From: Betaproteobacteria bacterium
GTDB taxonomy: Bacteria; Acidobacteriota; Terriglobia; Acidiferrales; UBA7541
Length of the DNA stretch: 64,000 bases
NCBI GenBank assembly: GCA_903970165.1
Contig: CAJCHZ010000092.1
Location: 1-64,000, forward strand
Direction: 5' to 3'
The notes under the pieces: model-generated
The model's input: the letters and a program-made list of their open reading frames with translations, nothing else
The model's database searches: none
Told to the model about the DNA's origin: nothing
Program-made: the position numbers and the translations under genes
Shown: piece by piece, positions 1,771 to 42,669 of the stretch
Layout: every line of letters starts with the position of its first letter
Position numbering within the stretch: position 1 is the stretch's first letter

Positions 1771-3696
1771 TCAATCCACTGGCATCGGCACAGCCGCCGC
1801 TTTCATCCTCGCAATGTCACTCAACACATCAGGCTTCCCGTCGATCCGTTCCAAATGCGGATACCGCTCGCCGCCGTGATAGTCAATCTTGTACGTCCGG
1901 AAAAAATCTTCGTTCTCGATCAGCAATTCGATCGGCTCATGCGCCCCCCTCGCCTGCCGAATCGCTTCGCGCAAACCATCCGGATTCCATCTCCGCCCAT
2001 TCACGGCAATCAATTTCATTCCCGGCGCAATCCCGGCTTGCGCCGCAGGAGAACCCGGAATCACGTCGCTCAGCTCATCGCTCTCCTCGGTGCCAGGATC
2101 ATGCGCAATGAACCCTAGCGAATACTGAACGTCGGTCGTACGCGAGACCGCTTCCTCCGCCGCCTGGTGATCATTCATCGTGTCATCGTACGTAAGTCTC
2201 CATCCGCTGCTTTCCAGGCCACCTAGTGGCGCTCCAGGTCCGTGTGTGTTCAGTCGGTCAGTGAAAAATGTCCGCCAGTCGTACGGAGTTATAGTCTGCA
2301 ATGCGGCCACGACATCTTCAAACGTATACGGCACTATTTTTGGCCCGCTATTTTCGCCGCCATGAAATTTTCTGCAAAAATCGTCCAGCGAAGCCTTACC
2401 CTTGCTCTCCCGCCGGATAATCGTGTCCGCCTCCAGCCAGATCAGCGTGCCTTCATCGTAGTAGTCCACTCCGCGCCGCCACGATGATCCTTCCGCGCGC
2501 GCTCCATACAGCAGTTGCGCCGCAATCGCCGTATCCTGCAGGTTTCGCCACGTCCGCCCCGGACGCTCGTTCAAATACGCAGCCACGTAAGCAACGTTCT
2601 CCTGCAACTTCTCTGGCTTCCACAAACCGCTCCGCGCGGAAAGAATCGTGCCGTAATATTGCGTCAACCCCTCATACACCCACAGCAGTTCGCCCTTCAT
2701 CGCCGCCTGGTAATCCGGCGTCGCAAGCCCGGCCGGTCGCCGGTATTTTCCATTCCACGAGTGGAAAAATTCGTGCGGCAGCAAATCCGTCTGTGTTTCG
2801 AAAATCTCCGGTTCAAGCAGCGCCCGTTCCGGCATGCGATTGTCGCTGGACTCATTGTGCTCCACACCGTCCGTCGGCAAGTTGTCAGTCAACGTCAGCA
2901 GAAAGTCGTAACGCCGGTAATGTCTCGCCCCAAACAATGCCCCCGTCTCTGCAACGAGCTGCTTCCAGTGCCGGATTTCCTCGCGCGTCGCGATGACGGA
3001 AGCCCCGCTATCGCCCGCAATATGGATAAAGTGTTGCGGTTGCTGGCCCCTGGAAAGCTCGATCGTGAGGAAATGCGCTCCCGCAATCACGGGCGAGTCA
3101 ACCAAAGTGGTCAGTGTAGCCGGTAGAAACTGAATGCCCTCTGAAGATTCCTTTGCGACAGGCAGCGCAGTTCCAAATTTCCAACCCTCCGGCGCGCGCA
3201 AGCTCGCTTCAAACGTCAAATCGTCGCTTCGCGCTCCCTGAGGGTACAAAAGCACCATGTACCAGTTCAAAAGCGCCAGCTGCGCCGTTGCGGAGGGCGT
3301 CTCGTGCCCCACGCTTGCGCCTGTCGGCGAAAGATAATCCAGCGAAACTTCAAGTTCACTCCCGCCTTCCGGTATCTGGCAATGAAACGCGTACATGTCC
3401 GTATCATCGCGCCGCCATGCGATCTCTTTCCCGTTCACTCGAAAAATCAACCCAGTCAAATCCGCAATTGGCCCGACCGGCGCATGCTCTCCAGGAATCC
3501 ATTTCGGATAAACGAGCGTCAGCGGCCCCGCCGCCACTGGAAACGTTACCTTGGCATGAAAAACGTACTTCGCTGCGTCACGCAAATCCACGGCTAGTCG
3601 AATCGGCTTTTTCGCATCCTGCCCCTTCGCTGCTGCCGCTAAACAAAGGCACGACGCAATCGTCAGTAACGCCCACTGGGCAATGCGCTTTATCAT
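1771..3696 (-). CDS. M61 family glycyl aminopeptidase with C-terminal PDZ domain, exported
   Basis: 641 aa. Start chosen at ATG 3696 because GAGGAG precedes it and the next residues form a signal peptide (MIKRIAQWALLTIASCLCLAAAAKGQ); the frame is open further upstream but without signal-like sequence. An N-terminal beta-domain (about 30-230) precedes the gluzincin core with the zinc motif HEFFH at 308-312, followed by SWNGKYRRP and the third zinc ligand in LWVYEGLTQYYG (E341). A PDZ domain (about 540-620; GSPAAQAGIAPGM) ends the protein. This order is that of family M61. Likely a periplasmic aminopeptidase acting with the S9 enzyme downstream in the degradation of peptides. Confidence 0.93.
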   Translation of the reverse strand: MIKRIAQWALLTIASCLCLAAAAKGQDAKKPIRLAVDLRDAAKYVFHAKVTFPVAAGPLTLVYPKWIPGEHAPVGPIADLTGLIFRVNGKEIAWRRDDTDMYAFHCQIPEGGSELEVSLDYLSPTGASVGHETPSATAQLALLNWYMVLLYPQGARSDDLTFEASLRAPEGWKFGTALPVAKESSEGIQFLPATLTTLVDSPVIAGAHFLTIELSRGQQPQHFIHIAGDSGASVIATREEIRHWKQLVAETGALFGARHYRRYDFLLTLTDNLPTDGVEHNESSDNRMPERALLEPEIFETQTDLLPHEFFHSWNGKYRRPAGLATPDYQAAMKGELLWVYEGLTQYYGTILSARSGLWKPEKLQENVAYVAAYLNERPGRTWRNLQDTAIAAQLLYGARAEGSSWRRGVDYYDEGTLIWLEADTIIRRESKGKASLDDFCRKFHGGENSGPKIVPYTFEDVVAALQTITPYDWRTFFTDRLNTHGPGAPLGGLESSGWRLTYDDTMNDHQAAEEAVSRTTDVQYSLGFIAHDPGTEESDELSDVIPGSPAAQAGIAPGMKLIAVNGRRWNPDGLREAIRQARGAHEPIELLIENEDFFRTYKIDYHGGERYPHLERIDGKPDVLSDIARMKAAAVPMPVD

Positions 3697-29533: not shown

Positions 29534-29794
29534 ATGAAATCGGTGAACACCCACGAAGCCAAAACGCAGTTCTCACGCCTTCTTCGCCGCGTCGCCTCCG
29601 GAGAAGAAATCACCATCGCCAATCGCGGCGTCCCGGTCGCTCGCCTGGTCCCGGTAGAGGCGAAGAAGCCAAGGAGAAAACTCGGAATCTTCGGCGATCA
29701 GATCAAGATTTCTGACGATTTTGACGCTCCCCTGCCGGCCGAGATTTTGGCCGCATTTGAGGGACGTCCACATCGCGCAAAAAAGAAATCATGA
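29534..29794 (+). CDS. Phd/YefM-family antitoxin
   Basis: 86 aa. MKSVNTHEAKTQFSRLLRRVASGEEITIANRGVPVARLVP is the Phd/YefM N-terminal fold: DNA-binding and dimerisation. The C-terminal tail (about 50-86) should wrap around the toxin. Its stop overlaps the toxin start by ATGA, so the two are translationally coupled. It likely represses its own promoter through the palindromes just upstream. Confidence 0.92.
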   Translation: MKSVNTHEAKTQFSRLLRRVASGEEITIANRGVPVARLVPVEAKKPRRKLGIFGDQIKISDDFDAPLPAEILAAFEGRPHRAKKKS

Positions 29795-30189
29795 AGAAAT
29801 ATCTTCTGGATACCAGCGTATTGATCCACAGTCTCATTTCTCGTCCCAATCTCAACGACCAGGCTCTCGGTGTGCTTGCGGACCAGTCGTCGGACCTCTA
29901 TCTGTCCGCGGTAAGTCCTTGGGAAATTACCATCAAGACTGGCCTTGGAAGGCTGGTCCTTCCTGGTAGGCCTGCTCAAATTCTGACCCGAGCGATGACA
30001 GAACTCTCTCTCCGTTCGCTGGACATTACTTATGTTCACGCGCTTGCGATAGAAGAATTGCCTTATCACCACGGCGACCCGTTCGATCGCATGTTGATCG
30101 CGCAAGCGCGCTCCGAGGACATGGTTTTGCTCACCGCGGATCGCATTTTCCGAAAATATGACGTGGACCAGATTTTTTGCGGGAAGTAA
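29791..30189 (+). CDS. PIN-domain toxin (VapC-type ribonuclease)
   Basis: 132 aa. PIN-domain acidic residues are in place: LLDTSVLIHSL (first Asp), a Glu in VSPWEITIKTGLGRL, and HGDPFDRMLIAQA with LTADRIFRKYDV for the last Asp residues. VapC toxins cut tRNA or rRNA. This subgroup (COG3744, paired with Phd-type antitoxins) fits the upstream gene. Confidence 0.92.
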   Translation: MKKYLLDTSVLIHSLISRPNLNDQALGVLADQSSDLYLSAVSPWEITIKTGLGRLVLPGRPAQILTRAMTELSLRSLDITYVHALAIEELPYHHGDPFDRMLIAQARSEDMVLLTADRIFRKYDVDQIFCGK

Positions 30190-33433: not shown

Positions 33434-33955
33434 ATGAATACCTCTCCACCATCACAGTCTCCCGAGACGAAAGATGGCAGTGGCGACGTAAGCCGCAAGC
33501 TGCTGTTGCGGCTGGAAATGCAAAGCGATCCGACAATACTCTGCGCGATTCGCGGCGCGGTGGAGCGACTAACGGAATCCTTCGGATTCACTCCTGAGGA
33601 AAGCAGAGCAATAACCCTCGCCGTGGATGAAGCGCTCACCAATATCATTCGGCATGCCTACCATGGCCGCCCGGACCAGCCAATTGAGTTGTATTTCCAC
33701 TCGCTAAAGCGAGCCGCCAATGGGGCCGGCGAAAAGGCTGCACAGGGACTGGAATTCGTCCTGTGCGACCGCGGACCCGCTATCGAAGAGAGCAAGCTCT
33801 GCGGTCGGGCTTTGGACGACGTGAAGCCGGGGGGACTCGGGCTGCACTTTATTAAGGAAAGCATGGACGTTGTTGAGTACAAACGCGCCGATGAGATCAA
33901 TCATCTCCGCTTGGTCAAATACGTCAGCACGTCGAAGCAGGAAGTGAACTCGTAA
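33434..33955 (+). CDS. RsbW/SpoIIAB-like anti-sigma factor serine kinase
   Basis: 173 aa from ATG 33434 (MNTSPPSQSPETKDG). GHKL-type ATPase with the N box LAVDEALTNIIRHAYHG and a G-box region FVLCDRGPAI followed by KPGGLGLHFIKESMDVVEY. These proteins either bind a sigma factor or phosphorylate a STAS partner. It is first in a plus-strand run, 21 bp before a STAS-domain gene and upstream of mlaEFD, so the natural partner is the next gene. No sigma factor is in the window. Confidence 0.9.
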   Translation: MNTSPPSQSPETKDGSGDVSRKLLLRLEMQSDPTILCAIRGAVERLTESFGFTPEESRAITLAVDEALTNIIRHAYHGRPDQPIELYFHSLKRAANGAGEKAAQGLEFVLCDRGPAIEESKLCGRALDDVKPGGLGLHFIKESMDVVEYKRADEINHLRLVKYVSTSKQEVNS

Positions 33956-33976
33956 TACGTTGTAAGGAGAAAACAA

Positions 33977-34309
33977 GTGCAGATTTCGAGCCGGGAAATG
34001 GATAAAGCCACAATCTTTGACGTAACAGGAGACATTGACCTGGCGAATTCGCCGGCCGTGCGAAAGGCGCTTTTGCGCGAAGTGCGGGAGAAGCGCACGC
34101 CGCGGGTGGTGATGAATTTGAGCAAAGTGCGCTACATAGACAGCTCTGGCGTGGCGTCACTCGTCGAAGGGCTCAAGGCTTCGCGGGACGTTGGCTCGCG
34201 CTTTATCCTCTTTGGATTGAGCACCTCGGCGCGCGAAGTGCTTCAGCTGTCGCGCCTGTTGAAAATTTTCGAGGTGTACGACAACGAAGAGCAGGCACTG
34301 GCAGCTTGA
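33977..34309 (+). CDS. STAS-domain anti-sigma factor antagonist (RsbV/SpoIIAA-like; possible MlaB role)
   Basis: 110 aa, GTG start with AAGGAGA seven bases upstream. The STAS fold is complete (FDVTGDIDLANSPAVRKAL, VVMNLSKVRYIDSSGVASLVEGLKAS). The phospho-acceptor motif DSSG is present with the expected serine at about 57. In E. coli the Mla permease-ATPase complex includes MlaB, a stand-alone STAS protein. This one lies 75 bp before mlaE, so it could be MlaB, an RsbV, or both. Confidence 0.92.
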   Translation: MQISSREMDKATIFDVTGDIDLANSPAVRKALLREVREKRTPRVVMNLSKVRYIDSSGVASLVEGLKASRDVGSRFILFGLSTSAREVLQLSRLLKIFEVYDNEEQALAA

Positions 34310-34384
34310 TCGGGCGAATTCAGGGTGGCGGATTTTTCCTGAGTACCAAAAATTGAGTTACAGGAAGACAGGTTACAGAAATTA

Positions 34385-35185
34385 ATGTTTGAATTTGTGT
34401 CACAAATCGGCGGAAGCGTCACGAATAGCCTGGCGTATGTGGGGGCGCTGGCGTCGCTCGGCGGGCGCGCCGCGTATTACACGTTTGTCGGGCCGTTCCG
34501 CGGCAAGCCGCTGCGCGTGCAGCGCGCCATTTCGCAGGCCATGGACGTAGGCGTGCGGGCGCTGCCGATTCTCTCGCTGATTACTTTTTTCATTGGATTG
34601 ATTCTCGCTCTGCAAGCCGCGTATGAGTTGCGGCGGTTTGGCGCGATGAGCTACGTGGCCACCGCGGTGGCGGTTTCCATGTCGCGCGAACTGGGCCCGC
34701 TTATCACCGCCATCGTGGTGATCGGGCGCTCGGGTTCGGCGTTTGCCGCGGAAATCGGCACCATGAAGGTGACCGAAGAGATAGATGCGCTGGAAACGAT
34801 GGCCATCAGCCCCATTCGTTTTTTGGTCACGCCGAAATTTCTCGCCATGATTGTGATGCTTCCGTGCCTGACGATCTGGGCCAACGCCATGGGCATTTTG
34901 GGCGGCTCTCTTTTCGGCGTCACGCAAGGCGAGTTCACCTTCCATCGTTACATCAATGCCTCGCTCGAGTCGCTCTTTCTCCGCGACATCATGACCGGGT
35001 TGGTCAAGAGCGTGATGTTTGGCATCACCATCACGGCGGTTGGATGCCAGGAAGGGCTCGCGACCGGAGCCGGCGCAGAGCAGGTCGGCCGCTCCACGAC
35101 CAGGGCGGTCGTCGTGTCGATCTTTCTTGTTGTGCTGGTGGATCTTGTTTTCACGGCGCTGTTCTTTTTCGTAAGCGGGTCGTAG
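34385..35185 (+). CDS. mlaE: MlaE-type ABC transporter permease
   Basis: 266 aa, five to six transmembrane segments. MlaE family marks: YELRRFGAMSYVATAVAVSMSRELGPLITAIVVIGRSGSAFAAEIGTMKVTEEIDALETM, with the conserved EIGTM and EIDAL stretches, and PIRFLVTPKFLA. The permease forms the inner-membrane core of an MCE lipid transporter that moves phospholipids between outer and inner membrane. The ribosome-binding site is weak. Followed by mlaF and mlaD. Confidence 0.94.
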   Translation: MFEFVSQIGGSVTNSLAYVGALASLGGRAAYYTFVGPFRGKPLRVQRAISQAMDVGVRALPILSLITFFIGLILALQAAYELRRFGAMSYVATAVAVSMSRELGPLITAIVVIGRSGSAFAAEIGTMKVTEEIDALETMAISPIRFLVTPKFLAMIVMLPCLTIWANAMGILGGSLFGVTQGEFTFHRYINASLESLFLRDIMTGLVKSVMFGITITAVGCQEGLATGAGAEQVGRSTTRAVVVSIFLVVLVDLVFTALFFFVSGS

Positions 35186-35203
35186 GATGCAGGGACATTT
35201 TTG

Positions 35204-36043
35204 ATGGCCATGGAAACGCAAAATACGGCAGCTCCTGATGCCCTCGATTCCGAGGCGATGATTTCGCTGCGCGACGTCCGCGTGAGTTACGGCGATCGCG
35301 AAATTTTGCACGGCGTCACGTTTGACGTGAAGCGCGGCGAGACGATGGTGATTCTCGGCGGCTCGGGCTCCGGAAAGAGTACGCTGCTGCGCACGCTCGT
35401 TGGGTTGGAAAAGGCGAGCTCGGGCGAAATCTGGATCAAAGGTAAGAACATTGCCGCGATCCCCGATGCGGAAATGGATGAGATTCGCAAAAAGATTGGC
35501 ATGTCGTTTCAAGGCTCGGCGCTCTTTGGCTCGATGACCGTTGGCGAAAATGTTGCCCTGCCGCTGCGCGAGCACACCAAGCTGGAAGATTCGACCATCG
35601 AAATCATGCTGCGGCTCAAACTCGAACAGGTTGGGCTTGCCGGATACGAGTACTACATGCCGTCGCAGCTGAGCGGAGGCATGAAGAAGCGCGCAGCGGT
35701 CGCGCGTGCGTTGGCGATGGACCCGGATATTCTATTTTTCGACGAGCCCTCCGCCGGTCTCGATCCGATTATTGCGGCCGGCATCGACCGTCTGATTCTG
35801 GAGTTGAAGCAGGCGTTTCGCATGACGGTCATCGTGGTCACACACGAACTTGCAAGCGCCTACCTGATTGCCGACCGCATGGTCCTGATTGACAAAGGGA
35901 ACGTCGTGGCGCTGGGCACGACCGCGGAGATGCGCGCCAGCACGCAGCCGCGTGTGCGGCAATTCCTGGATCGCGTGCCCGAGCCCGAGGTGGCCCGCGA
36001 ACTCGATTATTTGCAGATGCTCACGGAAGAGCGCCGTCTATGA
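35204..36043 (+). CDS. mlaF: MlaF-type ABC transporter ATP-binding protein
   Basis: 279 aa from ATG 35204 with AGGGACA upstream (a TTG at 35201 and ATG 35210 are alternatives). Walker A GGSGSGKST (about 51-59), Q-loop MSFQGSALFGSMTV, signature LSGGMKKRAAVARAL, Walker B ILFFDEPSAGLDP and the H-loop VTHEL. FQGSALFGSMTVGENVALPL is typical of MlaF. Powers the MlaE permease. Confidence 0.95.
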   Translation: MAMETQNTAAPDALDSEAMISLRDVRVSYGDREILHGVTFDVKRGETMVILGGSGSGKSTLLRTLVGLEKASSGEIWIKGKNIAAIPDAEMDEIRKKIGMSFQGSALFGSMTVGENVALPLREHTKLEDSTIEIMLRLKLEQVGLAGYEYYMPSQLSGGMKKRAAVARALAMDPDILFFDEPSAGLDPIIAAGIDRLILELKQAFRMTVIVVTHELASAYLIADRMVLIDKGNVVALGTTAEMRASTQPRVRQFLDRVPEPEVARELDYLQMLTEERRL

Positions 36044-36068
36044 ACGCGGGCGGCGGAAAGAGGACGTA

Positions 36069-37037
36069 ATGGCAGGGAAACGCGAATCGGTTTTCGTAGG
36101 GCTGTTTGTGATCCTGGCCGCGGCGGTCCTGATTTTTATGGTCTTCGCCATCACCGGGGCTTTCGGGCGCTCGGACAAGACATACCACGCCTATTTCCCG
36201 TTTGCCGGCGGAATCGAGCCGGGGGCGACCGTCCGCTACGCCGGAGGGCCGAAAGCGGGGCGCGTGGACAAGGTGTCGATCGACCCGCAGAATCCAGGGC
36301 GCATTGACATTGTCTTTAGCGTGCAAACGGATCTGCCGGTGAAGACCGACAGTCACGTGAAAATCATGAGCTTGAGCCCTCTCGGAGATAATCACCTCGA
36401 GGTCCTCCCCGGCACTGGCCAAACGGGGCCGGCACAGCCGGGCGCGCTGCTCCAATCGGATCCTTATGTGGATTTCAACGCGCTAACAGCGCAGATCAAC
36501 GAGCTCTCGCCGAAGGTACAGAAGCTTGTCGGGTCCTTGAATGACCGCGTCGATGAGCTGAAGGTGACGCTGGACCGCATCGACAACTTCCTGAGCCCGG
36601 AGAATGAGCAAAATCTTTCCGCCACTCTCAAGCAGACTCGCGGGTTGCTGGATGACAACCGCGAGCAGATCAAATCCACGGTTGCCAAGTTGAACTCGGC
36701 GAGCGGGAAGATTGAGCCGCTTATTCAGGACCTGCACAAAACTTCGCTGGAAGCCAACAAAGCGCTGGATCACATCGACTCTTTGTTGGACGATAACGAA
36801 GACAACATAAAAGTCTCGCTGGCCGAGCTTCGCAAATCTCTGACGAAGTTGACGGACATCACCACCCAGGTGGACCAGACGCTCGACGTAAACACGGAAA
36901 ACATCGACGAGCTTCTGGACAATTTCCGGCGCGTGTCGCAGAACCTGAAAGAGTTTACGGACACCATCAAGAAGCGGCCTTACACGCTTATTCGCGCAAG
37001 CAATCCGAAGGAACACGTTCCTGGTAATAACAAATGA
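36069..37037 (+). CDS. mlaD: MlaD-type MCE-domain protein
   Basis: 322 aa from ATG 36069 (GAGGAC upstream); open frame further upstream only shadows mlaF. One N-terminal transmembrane helix (VFVGLFVILAAAVLIFMVFAITG, 8-30), then an MCE domain (YFPFAGGIEPGATVRYAGGPKAGRVDKVSI to LEVLPG), and a long C-terminal region (about 150-300) with heptad-like Asp/Leu spacing (NELSPKVQKLVGSLNDRVDEL, LDHIDSLLDDNEDNI) that should form a coiled coil or needle. It is the periplasmic lipid-binding subunit. Its stop overlaps the next start by ATGA. Confidence 0.94.
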   Translation: MAGKRESVFVGLFVILAAAVLIFMVFAITGAFGRSDKTYHAYFPFAGGIEPGATVRYAGGPKAGRVDKVSIDPQNPGRIDIVFSVQTDLPVKTDSHVKIMSLSPLGDNHLEVLPGTGQTGPAQPGALLQSDPYVDFNALTAQINELSPKVQKLVGSLNDRVDELKVTLDRIDNFLSPENEQNLSATLKQTRGLLDDNREQIKSTVAKLNSASGKIEPLIQDLHKTSLEANKALDHIDSLLDDNEDNIKVSLAELRKSLTKLTDITTQVDQTLDVNTENIDELLDNFRRVSQNLKEFTDTIKKRPYTLIRASNPKEHVPGNNK

Positions 37038-37741
37038 AGCAGGAGAATCACGAACTCATGATTAGACCAACTGAACTGCATCGCGGCCACGAACGTCCGG
37101 GTGTTTCGCGGACGCCGCAAAGAGCTTTCTGCGTCCTCTTGCTGGCTGTATGTTTCTCGGCGGGATGCGGCGCCTCTCACCCCATTAGCTATTACCAGCT
37201 TACGGTTCCGGGCGACAGAGTGCCCAATGCGCCGAGCGCCAATCCCATTCCCATTACGCTGCTCATTGGCCGATTGACCGCTCCCGCGCTCTATCGCGAG
37301 GACCAGATCGTCTACGGCACGCGCGGGGAAAGCATGGGCATCTACGAATATCACCGCTGGTCCGAGCCGCCCACAGAGATGATTGGTGAAATTATGCTGC
37401 GGCAGTTCCGGGCCTCCGGCCGCTACAAAGGCGTCTATACGTTACGCAGTGATATTCGCGGAGATTATCTGTTGCACGGGCGTCTCTATGACTTCAAGGA
37501 AGTCGAAGCCGGATCGCTCATTGGCCGCGTCACCATGGAAGTAGAACTGCGCAATATCAAGGCCAACACGACGGTGTGGACGCACTTCTTTACGCACGAC
37601 GAAATGGCCACCGAGAAGAGTACCGCAGGCGTGGTGGCAGCTCTGGACAAAAGCGTTCAGTTGGGAGTGGCGGAATTCAGCGCCGGCGTGGATCAATATT
37701 TTGCGGAGCATCCGCCGACGCCAGAGAAAACCGAGCCATAG
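37034..37741 (+). CDS. ABC-type transport auxiliary lipoprotein (PqiC/ABC_trans_aux-like)
   Basis: 235 aa. Lipobox-like CVLLLAVCFSAGC near residue 45, then SYYQLTVPG as in PF03886-type proteins, LIGRLTAPALYREDQIVYGTRGESMGIYEYHRWSEPPTEMI and a beta-rich body. These lipoproteins sit at the inner face of the outer membrane and complete MCE transport systems. The ATGA overlap with mlaD confirms one operon. The first 20 residues before the signal peptide are unusually long; an internal ATG (37061) may be the real start. Confidence 0.88.
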   Translation: MKQENHELMIRPTELHRGHERPGVSRTPQRAFCVLLLAVCFSAGCGASHPISYYQLTVPGDRVPNAPSANPIPITLLIGRLTAPALYREDQIVYGTRGESMGIYEYHRWSEPPTEMIGEIMLRQFRASGRYKGVYTLRSDIRGDYLLHGRLYDFKEVEAGSLIGRVTMEVELRNIKANTTVWTHFFTHDEMATEKSTAGVVAALDKSVQLGVAEFSAGVDQYFAEHPPTPEKTEP

Positions 37742-37779
37742 CCTTGTAAGAGAGAGAAAATCTCCGCGAAAATTTTGTC

Positions 37780-38589
37780 TTACGTTGTGCGACGCAGCGT
37801 CAGAAGAGTGACGTCGTCGTCGAGTTCTGGCTGGCCGCTATGGCGCTGCACACCATCCAGCAGTGCCGCTGAAAAATCCGGAAGACGGACGGAACCTGGA
37901 AACTTCTCCAGAGTCGACTCAGCCAGCCGCAAAAATCCCCGCGGCGTAAGCTGATCGCCGCCTGGAGACCGCACCTCCGTCGCACCATCGGAAAACGCCA
38001 GAATCATGTCCCCTGGCAAGAGCCGGATGCTCTGTTCGCTGTACGCCTCCCCGGTTACAAAACCGAGCGGGAGATTCTCCATGCCTTCGCCAATCTCAAT
38101 AAATCTGTTTTCCCTTGACCGCCACAGAAGCATCCGCGGGTGGGCGGCGTAGGCGAAATTAAACTCGCCGTTTGTGCCGTCAAATGTGCCAGTCACGACG
38201 GTTGTCAATCGCAGCGGGCCGTCGGAATGTTCCGTGTTGAGAGTGAACTCATCGTTCAGGGCCACCAGCAGACCCGCGGTATCGCGCACGTCCTGATGCT
38301 TGTGCAGGACGTGATGGACGTGGCGCGCGACCCCGCTGGCCACATAGCCGTGCCCCACGCAATCGGCCAGGACCACCCGAGCAATGTTGTCACTGCACGA
38401 AAACACAGCGGAAAGGTCGCCCCCGTGATCTGCTCCCGAAGGCACAGAAATGACGTCCGCTTCCAGGCCGGCCAACTCCAGGGAGCGGTGGGCGCGCTCG
38501 TTGCCAGCCCAGAGCTCCATACAGCCGAAGGGGCGCTGCGCCGAGGTCGTACAAACAAAAGCATTTGGTTCTGGCTTCGTGAATTTCAT
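37780..38589 (-). CDS. SpoIIE-like PP2C serine phosphatase (RsbU-type)
   Basis: 269 aa; ATG 38589 or an internal ATG 38523 (MELWAGNERAHRSLEL, the usual beginning of the acidobacterial group). PP2C metal-binding residues in SVPSGADHGGDLSAVFSC, VVLADCVGHGYVASGVARHVH, and AFSDGATEVRSPGGDQLTPRGF. No sensor domain is attached. Such phosphatases remove phosphate from STAS antagonists; it converges on the kinase-STAS-Mla operon, 38 bp from its end. Upstream lies a dispersed hairpin repeat (38686-38793) pointing toward this gene. Confidence 0.9.
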   Translation of the reverse strand: MKFTKPEPNAFVCTTSAQRPFGCMELWAGNERAHRSLELAGLEADVISVPSGADHGGDLSAVFSCSDNIARVVLADCVGHGYVASGVARHVHHVLHKHQDVRDTAGLLVALNDEFTLNTEHSDGPLRLTTVVTGTFDGTNGEFNFAYAAHPRMLLWRSRENRFIEIGEGMENLPLGFVTGEAYSEQSIRLLPGDMILAFSDGATEVRSPGGDQLTPRGFLRLAESTLEKFPGSVRLPDFSAALLDGVQRHSGQPELDDDVTLLTLRRTT

Positions 38590-39330: not shown

Positions 39331-41001
39331 ATGAGTCCCCATGAAACGGATCGCCGCCATCTGGAGCGGCAAATCGTGTTTGCCCGTCCGATCGTCGTTC
39401 TGCTTTCCATCCTTGCGCTGCTTCAGCAGCCGCATCCCGAGGAAGCCAAACGGACCATCTCGTTCCTCGTCGCTTATCTGCTGCTTGCGCTTGCGGTCAT
39501 TCCTCTGGAGCGTTCCCTACGTAAGCGTGCCTGGCATCTGCCGATCGCCTGCGACCTGCTGGCGCTGGGCGTATTCATGTACATTACGCCGCTGTCTGTC
39601 CCGGTGTGGTTTCCTTATCTCTTTGTCTGCTGGGTAGCAGGCATGCGCTGGGGGCTGCGCGCTGCTGTACCGCTTGCCGGGGCCTTGGCGCTTATCCTGG
39701 TACTGCTCACCGCCGTCAGAGGCGAAATTGGGTGGATGCGTGTTGTTGCGTGGATGGGCCTTCTCGGCGGCACATTTGGCGGAGGCGCTTCGCTGGCCTT
39801 CCTGGCCGACCGCAGCCGCCACTTTGCTTCGCAGAACGACTTTTTCTCTCACATCACCGCGACACTGCAGGTGGACCAGGGCCTGGCCGAGTCGCTGCGC
39901 CTGATGCTCGAGGAACTCGCTCGCGCGTTCGACGCGGAAGTGGCCCTGCTGGCTTACCGCGACAGCGATCTGGAACGCATCTTCATCTGGCGCCTCAAAG
40001 CAGGTGAAAGCGAGCGGCTCATCCCGGAAAGCTATCCGCTGGCGCGGGCCGACGGCTTCCTTCTGGATGATATGGAAGCAACAATTTGCTGGAACAGCCT
40101 CGAAGGCCCGGGAAATGGCTTTGGATGGGACCGGCGGGACGGCCGAGCGCTGAAAACTCTGCCACGTCTGCCCGGACCCACGCAGAACGAGCTAAATCTC
40201 CGCTCGATGCTTTCGGTAGCCTTTGATCAGTCCGGCCAGGCGGCGGGCCGCATCTTTCTCCTCAACGGGAGAAAGCCTTTCGAGCGCCCGGACCTGGCGT
40301 GGCTCGAGCGTATCGCCCGCCACATCGGGCCTTCCCTCGAAAATGTTTTTCTACTGCGGCACGTACGTGCGCGGGCCATTGAAGGCGAGCGCAGCCGCAT
40401 CTCACGCGACCTGCACGACGGCATTCTGCAATCACTTCTTAGCATTGAAATCCAGCTCGACGTGCTTCGCCGCAAGGTCGGGTCTCATCCGGAGCAGGCC
40501 GAAGCCAGCCTCGGCAACCTCCAAGCCACGGTAAAAAACGAGGGCGCGGAGCTGCGGCGTTTGGTCACGGACCTGCGTCCGTTGCGTGTGCAGAGCGCGG
40601 ATTTGGTTGATTTAATGCATGGTTTCGCGGAGCGTTATCGCAACGAATCGGCGCTCGCGCTGGATGTCATCATCGAATCGGCCGATTTGCATGCTCCGGA
40701 CCGCGTCTGCCGCGAGATTTTCCAGATTTACCGTGAAGCACTCAACAACATAAAAAAGCATGCTAAGGCTTCCCATGTCGTGGTAAAACTGACGCAGGAC
40801 GACAGTCGCATTGTTCTCGTGGTTGACGATAACGGCGAGGGCTTTAGTTTTGCCGGCAGGTTCACTGGGGACGAGCTCGACCGCCTGCGATTGGGTCCGA
40901 TTTCCATCAAGGAGCGAACGCGTACTGTGGGGGGATTTTTGACCGTTGAGTCGAACCCTGGCCATGGAGCGCGACTAACTATCGAAGTCCCGCTCGGTTG
41001 A
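39331..41001 (+). CDS. Membrane sensor histidine kinase (NarX/DesK class, HisKA_3)
   Basis: 556 aa. About five transmembrane helices (20-160), a GAF-like sensor domain (about 170-340), then the dimerisation/phospho-acceptor helix GERSRISRDLHDGILQSLL with His about 360, and the ATPase N box YREALNNIKKHAKAS (about 466-480), G box VDDNGEGFSF. The class phosphorylates NarL-type regulators. The response regulator starts 1 base after the stop, so the two are coupled. Confidence 0.92.
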   Translation: MSPHETDRRHLERQIVFARPIVVLLSILALLQQPHPEEAKRTISFLVAYLLLALAVIPLERSLRKRAWHLPIACDLLALGVFMYITPLSVPVWFPYLFVCWVAGMRWGLRAAVPLAGALALILVLLTAVRGEIGWMRVVAWMGLLGGTFGGGASLAFLADRSRHFASQNDFFSHITATLQVDQGLAESLRLMLEELARAFDAEVALLAYRDSDLERIFIWRLKAGESERLIPESYPLARADGFLLDDMEATICWNSLEGPGNGFGWDRRDGRALKTLPRLPGPTQNELNLRSMLSVAFDQSGQAAGRIFLLNGRKPFERPDLAWLERIARHIGPSLENVFLLRHVRARAIEGERSRISRDLHDGILQSLLSIEIQLDVLRRKVGSHPEQAEASLGNLQATVKNEGAELRRLVTDLRPLRVQSADLVDLMHGFAERYRNESALALDVIIESADLHAPDRVCREIFQIYREALNNIKKHAKASHVVVKLTQDDSRIVLVVDDNGEGFSFAGRFTGDELDRLRLGPISIKERTRTVGGFLTVESNPGHGARLTIEVPLG

Positions 41002-41002
41002 C

Positions 41003-41668
41003 ATGGCCAAAACTAAACAGCAAATACGAGTCCTCCTGGCGGACGACCACGCGATCTTTCGCGATGGCCTCCGCAAACTCCTCGATTCCGATGAGGACAT
41101 CACAATTGTCGGCGAGGCGCAGAATGGCGCGGAGTGCATCAAGCTGCTCGCCAAGCTGAAGCCGGAAATTTTATTGCTCGACCTGCGCATGCCCGACAAG
41201 GATGGGCTGGCGGTGCTCGAGGAAGTGAATTTCGATACCCTGCCGACGCGCGTGATTGTTTTGACGGCGGCTGAGGATGATCGCGACGTGGTGCGGGCGA
41301 TGCGGCTGGGTGCGCGGGGCGTTGTGTTGAAGCAATCCGCAACGGATCTTTTGGTGAAGAGCATTCACCGCGTTCATGCCGGCGAGATTTGGCTGGATAA
41401 CCGCATGACCGCGGAAGTGATGAAAGCGTTCTCGAAGTCTTCGGAATCGGGCCCACGCCGGGAAAAGCCGCTGCTCAGCGACCGTGAAAAAGAAATTGTG
41501 CAGCTCGTGGCGCAGGGATTCCGCAACAAGGAAATCGGGGAAAAGCTTTTTATCAGTGAACAGACCGTAAAAAATCACCTTCACAACATTTTCGATAAGC
41601 TCGGCGTCTCGGACCGCCTTGAGCTGGCGCTCTACGCCATCCACCACCGCCTGATTGACCAAACATAA
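41003..41668 (+). CDS. NarL/FixJ-family response regulator
   Basis: 221 aa. Receiver domain with acidic pair LADDHAIFRDGL, phospho-acceptor Asp in LLLDLRMPDKDG (about residue 60), Thr in VIVLTAAEDD and Lys in GVVLKQSA; then a LuxR-type HTH (LSDREKEIVQLVAQGFRNKEIGEKLFISEQTVKNHLHNIFDKLGV, about 155-205). DNA-binding partner of the kinase just upstream. The target genes are not evident. Confidence 0.94.
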   Translation: MAKTKQQIRVLLADDHAIFRDGLRKLLDSDEDITIVGEAQNGAECIKLLAKLKPEILLLDLRMPDKDGLAVLEEVNFDTLPTRVIVLTAAEDDRDVVRAMRLGARGVVLKQSATDLLVKSIHRVHAGEIWLDNRMTAEVMKAFSKSSESGPRREKPLLSDREKEIVQLVAQGFRNKEIGEKLFISEQTVKNHLHNIFDKLGVSDRLELALYAIHHRLIDQT

Positions 41669-41784: not shown

Positions 41785-42669
41785 CTACGAAGTGCTCGCC
41801 GATTTGCCCATCTTGGAAGAAGCGAGACGCTGGCGCGCGTAGCCACACCACGGGCTTGCGGGATCGAGCTTAATGTAGGCTTCCCAGTGCCGCCGCGCTT
41901 CGTTGTGGGCGGCCAGCTTTTCGCAAACAAAAGCCAGGTTGTAATGGGCGTCCGGATAGCCTGGAGCGAGGCGCACGGCGTTGCGCAAATGCAGTCGCGC
42001 TGCTTCGAGTCTTCCTACTTCTTCCAGAACACTTCCCAGGTTGAAATGTGCCAGGGCGTTTTCCGGATCCACGCGCAGGGCACGTCCAAAGTATTCGGCG
42101 GCTTTTTTCAGGTTGCCTTCTTCGTAGCAAAGCGTTCCGCAATTGAGCAATGCATCGAGTTTTTGCGGATCGATGAAGAGGGCGCGATCGTATGCTTCGA
42201 TAGCTTCGGCGCGCGTTTGGCCGCCGGCATCATACTCGAGCGCGGTGGCGAGCCATTCGTCGGCATCCGGGCCACGCTTGGCGATGACGCTTACACGCTC
42301 GCGGAGTTCGCTCGTTTCAAAATTCAAGGCAAACTGGCCAGAAAGCGGTTCCAGGCGGGCTCCATCATGCTCGATGAGGATATCTTTTCCGTCGGAGAGG
42401 ATGCGGAGTTCGGCTAACGGGGTCTCTAAGTGAGAAAGCTTTTCGCGGAGTGCGGCCAAGGCATGCCGCAAGCGGCCCGCGGGAACTCCTTCTTCCACCA
42501 ACTGCTTTACGGTGCGCAGGCCAATCAGGTCGCGGAAATCGTAGTATCGTTTTCCCAGATCTTTTTGGGGAGAGACGAGGCGCAAGCGGTCCCAATAATC
42601 CAACTGCTTCCCGGTCAGACCCACAATCCGCTGCACGTCTTCCGGGCTGAATCGGTCCATTGCACCCAT
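41785..42669 (-). CDS. MerR-type HTH fused to TPR repeats
   Basis: 294 aa; ATG 42669 or 42660. Residues 5-75 form a MerR winged helix (FSPEDVQRIVGLTGKQLDYWDRLRLVSP, KRYYDFRDLIGLRTVKQLVEEGVP). Residues about 165-285 hold three to four TPR units (EAIEAYDRALFIDPQKLDALLNCGTLCYEEGN, KKAAEYFGRALRVDPENALAHFNLG, and so on). There is no typical MerR effector domain; the TPRs probably bind a protein partner. The start is 6 bp after the ku stop, so it is translated from the ku message. Confidence 0.85.
   Translation of the reverse strand: MGAMDRFSPEDVQRIVGLTGKQLDYWDRLRLVSPQKDLGKRYYDFRDLIGLRTVKQLVEEGVPAGRLRHALAALREKLSHLETPLAELRILSDGKDILIEHDGARLEPLSGQFALNFETSELRERVSVIAKRGPDADEWLATALEYDAGGQTRAEAIEAYDRALFIDPQKLDALLNCGTLCYEEGNLKKAAEYFGRALRVDPENALAHFNLGSVLEEVGRLEAARLHLRNAVRLAPGYPDAHYNLAFVCEKLAAHNEARRHWEAYIKLDPASPWCGYARQRLASSKMGKSASTS

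Follow-up and report, generated by a model that had tools for sequence, protein, structure and literature searches.

Sigma factors are the output of classical RsbV/RsbW systems. The SpoIIAA/SpoIIAB/SpoIIE and RsbV/RsbW/RsbU switches each combine a kinase, a STAS protein with a DSSG site and a PP2C phosphatase. BtrU/V/W of Bordetella and SypA/SypE of Vibrio are partner switches with outputs other than a linked classical sigma factor; they govern type III secretion and biofilm formation, respectively, and neither is linked to a lipid transporter. A STAS protein is also part of the lipid transporter MlaFEDB of E. coli and P. aeruginosa, alongside a permease, an ATPase with a C-terminal extension and an MCE protein. 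In E. coli, MlaF without MlaB does not join MlaE stably (PMC7367683), and Thr52 of MlaB sits centrally in the interface with MlaF, the phosphomimic T52E weakening MlaB-MlaF binding (Kolich 2020, PMC7367683). The T52A variant keeps assembly and abolishes ATPase activity (PMC5016091). Phosphorylation of MlaB was put forward as a hypothesis by Thong 2016 and again in 2020, when no evidence for it existed in E. coli (Kolich 2020, PMC7367683). We found no report of a kinase for MlaB in the literature, and its regulation is still an open question in work on E. coli.

Here we describe a locus, on a 64,000-nucleotide stretch of acidobacterial DNA (the window), that quite probably encodes a partner-switching module with a lipid ABC transporter of the MCE family as its output, a reading that neither an experiment nor a model of the complex yet supports. 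Six genes run on the forward strand: an RsbW/SpoIIAB-type serine kinase (GHKL, 173 aa; 33434..33955; Pfam HATPase_c_2, 85.6 bits), an MlaB-like STAS protein proposed to be the regulated transporter subunit (110 aa, GTG start; 33977..34309; Pfam STAS, 71.7 bits), an MlaE-type permease (34385..35185; Pfam MlaE, 260.9 bits), an MlaF-type ATPase (35204..36043; Pfam ABC_tran), an MlaD/MpcD-like MCE protein of 322 aa with a long helical C-terminal part (36069..37037; Pfam MlaD, 51.4 bits) and a PqiC/MpcA-like lipoprotein (ABC_trans_aux, 58.6 bits; lipobox SAGC; 37034..37741), whose gene overlaps mlaD by 4 bp. A SpoIIE/RsbU-type PP2C phosphatase (Pfam SpoIIE, 101.8 bits) lies convergently on the reverse strand (37780..38589), with 38 bp between its stop and that of the lipoprotein gene. 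Pfam searches thereby bore out the positions and families that a first-pass annotation, made from the sequence alone, had given all seven genes, together with the one-direction run and the convergent phosphatase. Scans for promoters and terminators gave no matches above chance level.

The same annotation had described a plain Mla transporter, and here we depart from it. Because of the lipoprotein and the long MlaD we regard the transporter as Mpc-like, that is, as a Mla-Pqi chimera, and the PF05494 profile found no MlaC in the genome; the missing MlaC and the PqiC-like lipoprotein together rule out a plain Mla pathway. The MCE protein scores 92.8 bits against TIGR00996, under its cut-off of 140.5. 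Compared with MlaFEDB, the locus further differs in having Ser rather than Thr in DSSG, STAS upstream of mlaE, and a kinase and a phosphatase encoded alongside. The chimeric Mpc system of Brucella abortus (MpcEFDA) shares with this locus the permease, the ATPase, the PqiC-like lipoprotein, the absence of MlaC and an MCE protein of similar length, 331 aa against the 322 of the window. The STAS domain of Mpc is fused to the permease, whereas here it has a gene of its own, and the consulted portion of the Mpc description mentions no kinase or phosphatase.

The kinase-STAS-mlaE order was found at 58 non-redundant loci, of which 57 are acidobacterial and one is from Hydrogenedentota. In Acidobacterium sp. 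S8 (locus L046) the genes run as kinase-STAS-mlaEFD. Synteny limited to this strain had been named in the first-pass annotation as an outcome that would refute its proposal; the arrangement turned out to be shared by dozens of species belonging to two phyla. Phosphatase genes occur near 22 of the 58 kinase loci, in four placements, and near none of the 29 kinase-less loci (those with full upstream sequence) in which STAS still adjoins mlaE. None was found near the other 36 kinase loci, some of the surveyed stretches being short. That the genes are chance neighbours, or were brought together by a rearrangement specific to one strain, has nothing in its favour except that the window's phosphatase gene is convergent, and is refuted by these comparative data: an order kept by dozens of species from two phyla, with the phosphatase in four placements, excludes a chance arrangement and leaves this explanation scarcely credible.

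Family scores place the STAS protein closer to anti-sigma antagonists than to MlaB. It lies above the cut-off of NCBIfam ant_ant_sig, the anti-sigma-antagonist superfamily, and scores only 20 bits against the MlaB equivalog NF033618 (cut-off 90), so we call it an MlaB-like STAS protein and not a strict MlaB orthologue; it also matches the STAS chain 7ch8_K of a P. aeruginosa MlaFEDB structure (E=1.9e-4). An alpha-2 signature of Ala and Glu is present in all 91 mlaE-linked STAS proteins counted, compared with Ala in three and Glu in none of 29 unlinked ones (in four of these the motif search misread the sequence, and they were scored as neither). The ATPase, whose best PDB matches are the ABC ATPases 6z5u_K and 7d06_B, ends in a 24 aa extension (...LDYLQML...; 35969..36040, forward strand), corresponding by sequence to the handshake of E. 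coli MlaF, which docks where MlaF and MlaB meet. With length measured from an aligned anchor, the tail reaches 18 aa or more in every STAS-linked MlaF (87/87) but in only 7/95 of the unlinked acidobacterial ones. Alpha-2 signature, MlaF extension and persistence of STAS beside mlaE without a kinase all test the tie between the two, and on this comparison of sequences the STAS protein appears to belong to the transporter.

These patterns bear on the possibility that kinase and STAS control transcription through a sigma factor or another regulator, mlaEFD being merely co-transcribed targets. The superfamily score of the STAS protein is compatible with such a role, as is the action of classical RsbV/RsbW systems on sigma factors. 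However, no SigB/F/G-type sigma factor scored above cut-off in this genome, which is 94% complete, and the nearest non-RpoD match sits in a flagellar cluster. The cluster itself contains no sigma factor gene, as had been noted at first, and sigma-like ORFs, akin to an ECF-like sequence, lie near only 3 of the 58 kinase loci. Sigma-factor control as the main role was rejected on the lack of such a gene in the cluster and of a SigB/F/G match above cut-off. Retention of STAS beside mlaE after the kinase is gone, the MlaF extension that tracks STAS, and another kinase-STAS pair elsewhere in the genome also count against transcriptional control, which we judge improbable. Nor did we find a dedicated MlaB elsewhere, the other outcome that would have told against the original proposal: none of seven further STAS genes adjoins mlaE or is a candidate, all those with a readable alpha-2 are of the anti-sigma-antagonist type, and a second mlaEFD (contig C78) has neither a STAS gene nearby nor the MlaF extension.

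The DSSG site of the STAS protein is intact, as reported in the first-pass annotation, which numbered its serine 57. Alignment instead gives Ser56 (codon 34142..34144, forward strand), the first Ser of DSSG, as the equivalent of SpoIIAA Ser58 and E. coli MlaB Thr52. In SpoIIAA, Ser58 is the phosphorylated serine and the first Ser of DSSG. Sequences of E. coli MlaB, MlaF and SpoIIAA served as yardsticks; comparison with PDB entries covered the Mla pair (MlaB was one residue off). A serine is present at this site in all 58 kinase loci versus 17 of the 29 kinase-less ones (DSSG being retained in nine of the latter), and STAS-MlaE fusions nearly always carry Thr there. Kinase state changes only about six times on the MlaE tree, so that the serine-kinase correlation rests on few independent events; in paired comparisons kinase loss and serine loss went the same way about twice and never oppositely, which is not significant with so few events.

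The window's kinase, which matches RsbW (6m36) in the PDB, has intact N-box and G-boxes, and 56 of the 58 linked kinases retain the catalytic residues. The window's phosphatase has its metal-binding Asp residues, as do 22-23 of 23 linked orthologues. By co-occurrence, serine retention and phosphatase linkage tie both enzymes to the transporter. In the two exceptional loci, L287 and L289, the catalytic residues of the kinase are gone and STAS is still DSSG, as might be expected if the kinase were mainly a binding competitor that sequesters STAS from MlaF, with phosphorylation secondary. The intact residues of the other 56, the phospho-site serine in 58/58 and the linkage of phosphatase only where a kinase is present speak against sequestration as the main mode, and we give it very little weight.

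We propose that reversible serine phosphorylation of the MlaB-like protein by a dedicated kinase and phosphatase probably gates assembly of the MCE transporter, with the transporter as direct target; phosphorylation and its effect are untested. By analogy with E. coli MlaB and with SpoIIAA/RsbV, the STAS protein would be a cytoplasmic subunit that clamps MlaF and enables MlaFE to assemble and work, the transporter being on when unphosphorylated STAS is bound. The RsbW-type kinase would dock on the same helical face of STAS and phosphorylate Ser56, repelling MlaF and turning the transporter off, and the SpoIIE-type phosphatase would strip the phosphate and return STAS to MlaF. STAS-MlaF binding, Ser56 phosphorylation and the sign of the switch are all inferred from these analogues. 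The idea of lipid transport switched through STAS phosphorylation, already advanced in the first-pass annotation, gains support from synteny, the MlaF extension, the tendency of serine and phosphatase to accompany the kinase, and the lack of a SigB/F/G factor above cut-off; neither phosphorylation nor an effect on transport has been demonstrated.

The sign is uncertain because of the E. coli T52A variant, assembled and without ATPase activity (PMC5016091), which could mean that STAS is active when phosphorylated and that its dephosphorylation turns the transporter off; in Bordetella, moreover, phosphorylation of BtrV promotes rather than prevents BtrW binding (review PMC8256260). Set against this opposite sign are the weakened MlaF binding of T52E (PMC7367683) and natural kinase-less paralogues in which Ala, Cys or Leu occupies the site without loss of the operon, and we consider it unlikely. 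Were the proposed switch confirmed, it would provide the first MlaB-type kinase, give partner switching a direct transporter output and mean that envelope lipid traffic can be gated fast and reversibly by phosphorylation. Since the genes of a dedicated kinase and phosphatase lie next to those of the transporter, the question of MlaB regulation becomes testable with purified proteins of one locus.

Soil Acidobacteria and a second phylum apparently keep a kinase, often with a phosphatase, in or beside a lipid-transporter operon, to switch the transporter via its small regulatory subunit; if so, a phosphatase-kinase-STAS-mlaEFD arrangement would be common to the two phyla. Among the best 30 MlaE loci of Hydrogenedentota, 26 have kinase and STAS, and in 25 of these the phosphatase lies directly upstream and co-directional. 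Phosphatase, kinase, STAS and mlaEFD there usually form a single co-directional run, an arrangement checked with Pfam on one locus.

The first-pass annotation had read a cluster of kinase, STAS, mlaE, mlaF, mlaD, lipoprotein and phosphatase genes, and translation and Pfam recovered all seven. An RsbW-type kinase (173 aa, 33434-33955) and a STAS protein (110 aa, 33977-34309), separated by 21 bp, are followed on the same forward strand by mlaE, mlaF, mlaD and an ABC_trans_aux-family lipoprotein, the last two overlapping by 4 bp; a SpoIIE-type phosphatase lies on the reverse strand (37780-38589), 38 bp from the lipoprotein stop. The kinase retains its N-box (E, N) and G-boxes, and the phosphatase its metal-binding Asp residues. 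The DSSG phosphosite is intact as first described (D55-S56-S57-G), but it is Ser56, not Ser57, that aligns with Ser58 of SpoIIAA and Thr52 of E. coli MlaB. Elsewhere in the window are a PIN-domain protein, VapC-like by appearance (29791-30189, forward), a HisKA_3 histidine kinase and LuxR-type response regulator pair ~740 bp past the phosphatase (39331-41668, forward), and a protein with the unusual pairing of an N-terminal MerR-type DNA-binding domain and TPR repeats (41785-42669, reverse).

Synteny limited to this strain would have counted against the annotation, and it is not so limited. An MlaE-query search gave 79 loci, with kinase-STAS-mlaE-mlaF-mlaD-lipoprotein in most acidobacterial ones and the phosphatase in many. 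Most acidobacterial mlaE genes are of another type without STAS (phylum sample, 119 genomes), and the STAS-linked type is set apart, above ~200 bits, from the remaining mlaE (class sample, 250 genomes). With near-duplicates taken out there were 91 STAS-mlaE loci: 58 with a kinase (57 acidobacterial plus L066, from Hydrogenedentota), 29 kinase-less despite available upstream sequence, and 4 truncated where their contig ends. MlaE was found in 64/68 genomes of the phylum Hydrogenedentota, and 26 of its 30 top MlaE loci (L321, L349-L377) carry kinase and STAS; in 25 of those 26 the phosphatase is directly upstream and co-directional, giving a phosphatase-kinase-STAS-mlaEFD run. Pfam confirmed kinase, STAS, MlaE, ATPase and SpoIIE at the L066/L321 locus, and at L349 the phosphatase stop overlaps the kinase start. 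L349 also holds a kinase and STAS in a single frame (2289-3074, reverse), with kinase C-terminus and STAS N-terminus shortened, which may reflect either a genuine deletion-generated fusion or a misassembly.

The phosphosite is Ser in all 58 kinase loci; of the 29 kinase-less loci, 17 have Ser there, 7 have Thr, 3 Ala, 1 Cys and 1 Leu, and STAS-MlaE fusions nearly always have Thr. A phosphatase is near 22/58 kinase loci versus 0/29 kinase-less ones, in four placements: downstream, either convergent or co-directional, and upstream, either divergent (L051) or co-directional (L066, L153, L278, L279, L291). Fisher tests associate the kinase with Ser (p = 3e-7) and with the phosphatase (p = 4e-5), relatedness being ignored; kinase state changes ~6 times on the MlaE tree, and the independent pairs (~2 in the same direction, 0 opposite) are too few for significance. 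Two kinase-less clades have lost Ser in most members and one has DSAG, while DSSG is kept in kinase-less Sulfopaludibacter relatives and two single loci. A kinase-less STAS-mlaEFD paralogue in Acidobacteriaceae and relatives (L065, L067-L076, L295, L299), with Thr, Ala, Cys or Leu in most copies, looks, from its residues, like a constitutive version. In one family (L287, L289) the kinase relatives upstream of a DSSG-bearing STAS lack N-box and G-box residues, and may be binding-only regulators.

We infer that the STAS protein is a transporter subunit from its linkage to mlaE without a kinase, an Ala/Glu signature, the MlaF tail and structural-chain similarity. STAS stays directly upstream of mlaE in the 29 kinase-less loci. 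All 91 of 91 linked STAS proteins carry Ala two and Glu six positions past the phosphosite motif, and E. coli MlaB shares that Ala; unlinked STAS of the same order (n = 29, four misread by the motif search) have Ala in 3 and Glu in 0. A C-terminal MlaF tail of at least 18 residues past the QFL anchor is found in 87/87 STAS-linked versus 7/95 unlinked acidobacterial MlaF, with a hydrophobic helix-like motif inside it in 83/87 versus 0/95; Hydrogenedentota MlaF have a tail of the same kind. A comparable extension of E. coli MlaF docks where that protein meets MlaB. The window STAS is detectably similar to 7ch8_K, the STAS chain of a P. aeruginosa MlaFEDB structure (E = 1.9e-4), but its best matches are anti-sigma antagonists, and it falls far below the cut-off of the MlaB equivalog model. 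One kinase-less operon (L267) has a second STAS gene 3.7 kb downstream of mlaE. The window transporter combines a long MCE protein (322 aa) with a PqiC-family lipoprotein, and no MlaC was found in the source genome, a layout shared with the Mla-Pqi chimeric Mpc of Brucella (PMC12436622); there permease and STAS domain form one protein, whereas here STAS is a separate gene. A second mlaEFD in the source genome has no STAS nearby.

In E. coli, MlaF requires MlaB to join MlaE, and Thr52 of MlaB lies at the centre of the MlaF contact, which T52E weakens (PMC7367683); with T52A the complex still assembles but its ATPase activity is lost, and MlaB phosphorylation has been put forward as a hypothesis (PMC5016091). 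Combining these data with the partner-switch paradigm, we propose that unphosphorylated STAS bound to MlaF would turn the transporter on, phosphorylation of Ser56 by the kinase would turn it off, and the phosphatase would reset the switch; the sign is inferred by analogy. The first-pass observation holds and, to the extent that comparison can tell, so does the inference that lipid transport is switched through a phospho-STAS, phosphorylation itself being inferred; the system would be one of known parts with a new output. In literature lacking most subscription journals, no paper contained both RsbW and MlaE or joined MlaB with partner-switching and STAS domain, and only the MlaFB structure paper had MlaE together with anti-anti-sigma; given that gap, earlier description elsewhere is not excluded.

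The annotation pointed out that no sigma factor gene is nearby; in the genome as a whole no SigB/F/G-type sigma exceeds the curated cut-off, and the best non-RpoD sigma match (contig C109) sits among flagellar genes. Sigma-like ORFs lie near only 3/58 kinase loci and resemble an ECF-like sequence. The source genome has a second RsbW-type kinase with a STAS gene beside it on contig C121 (1017-1792, L123), away from mlaE.
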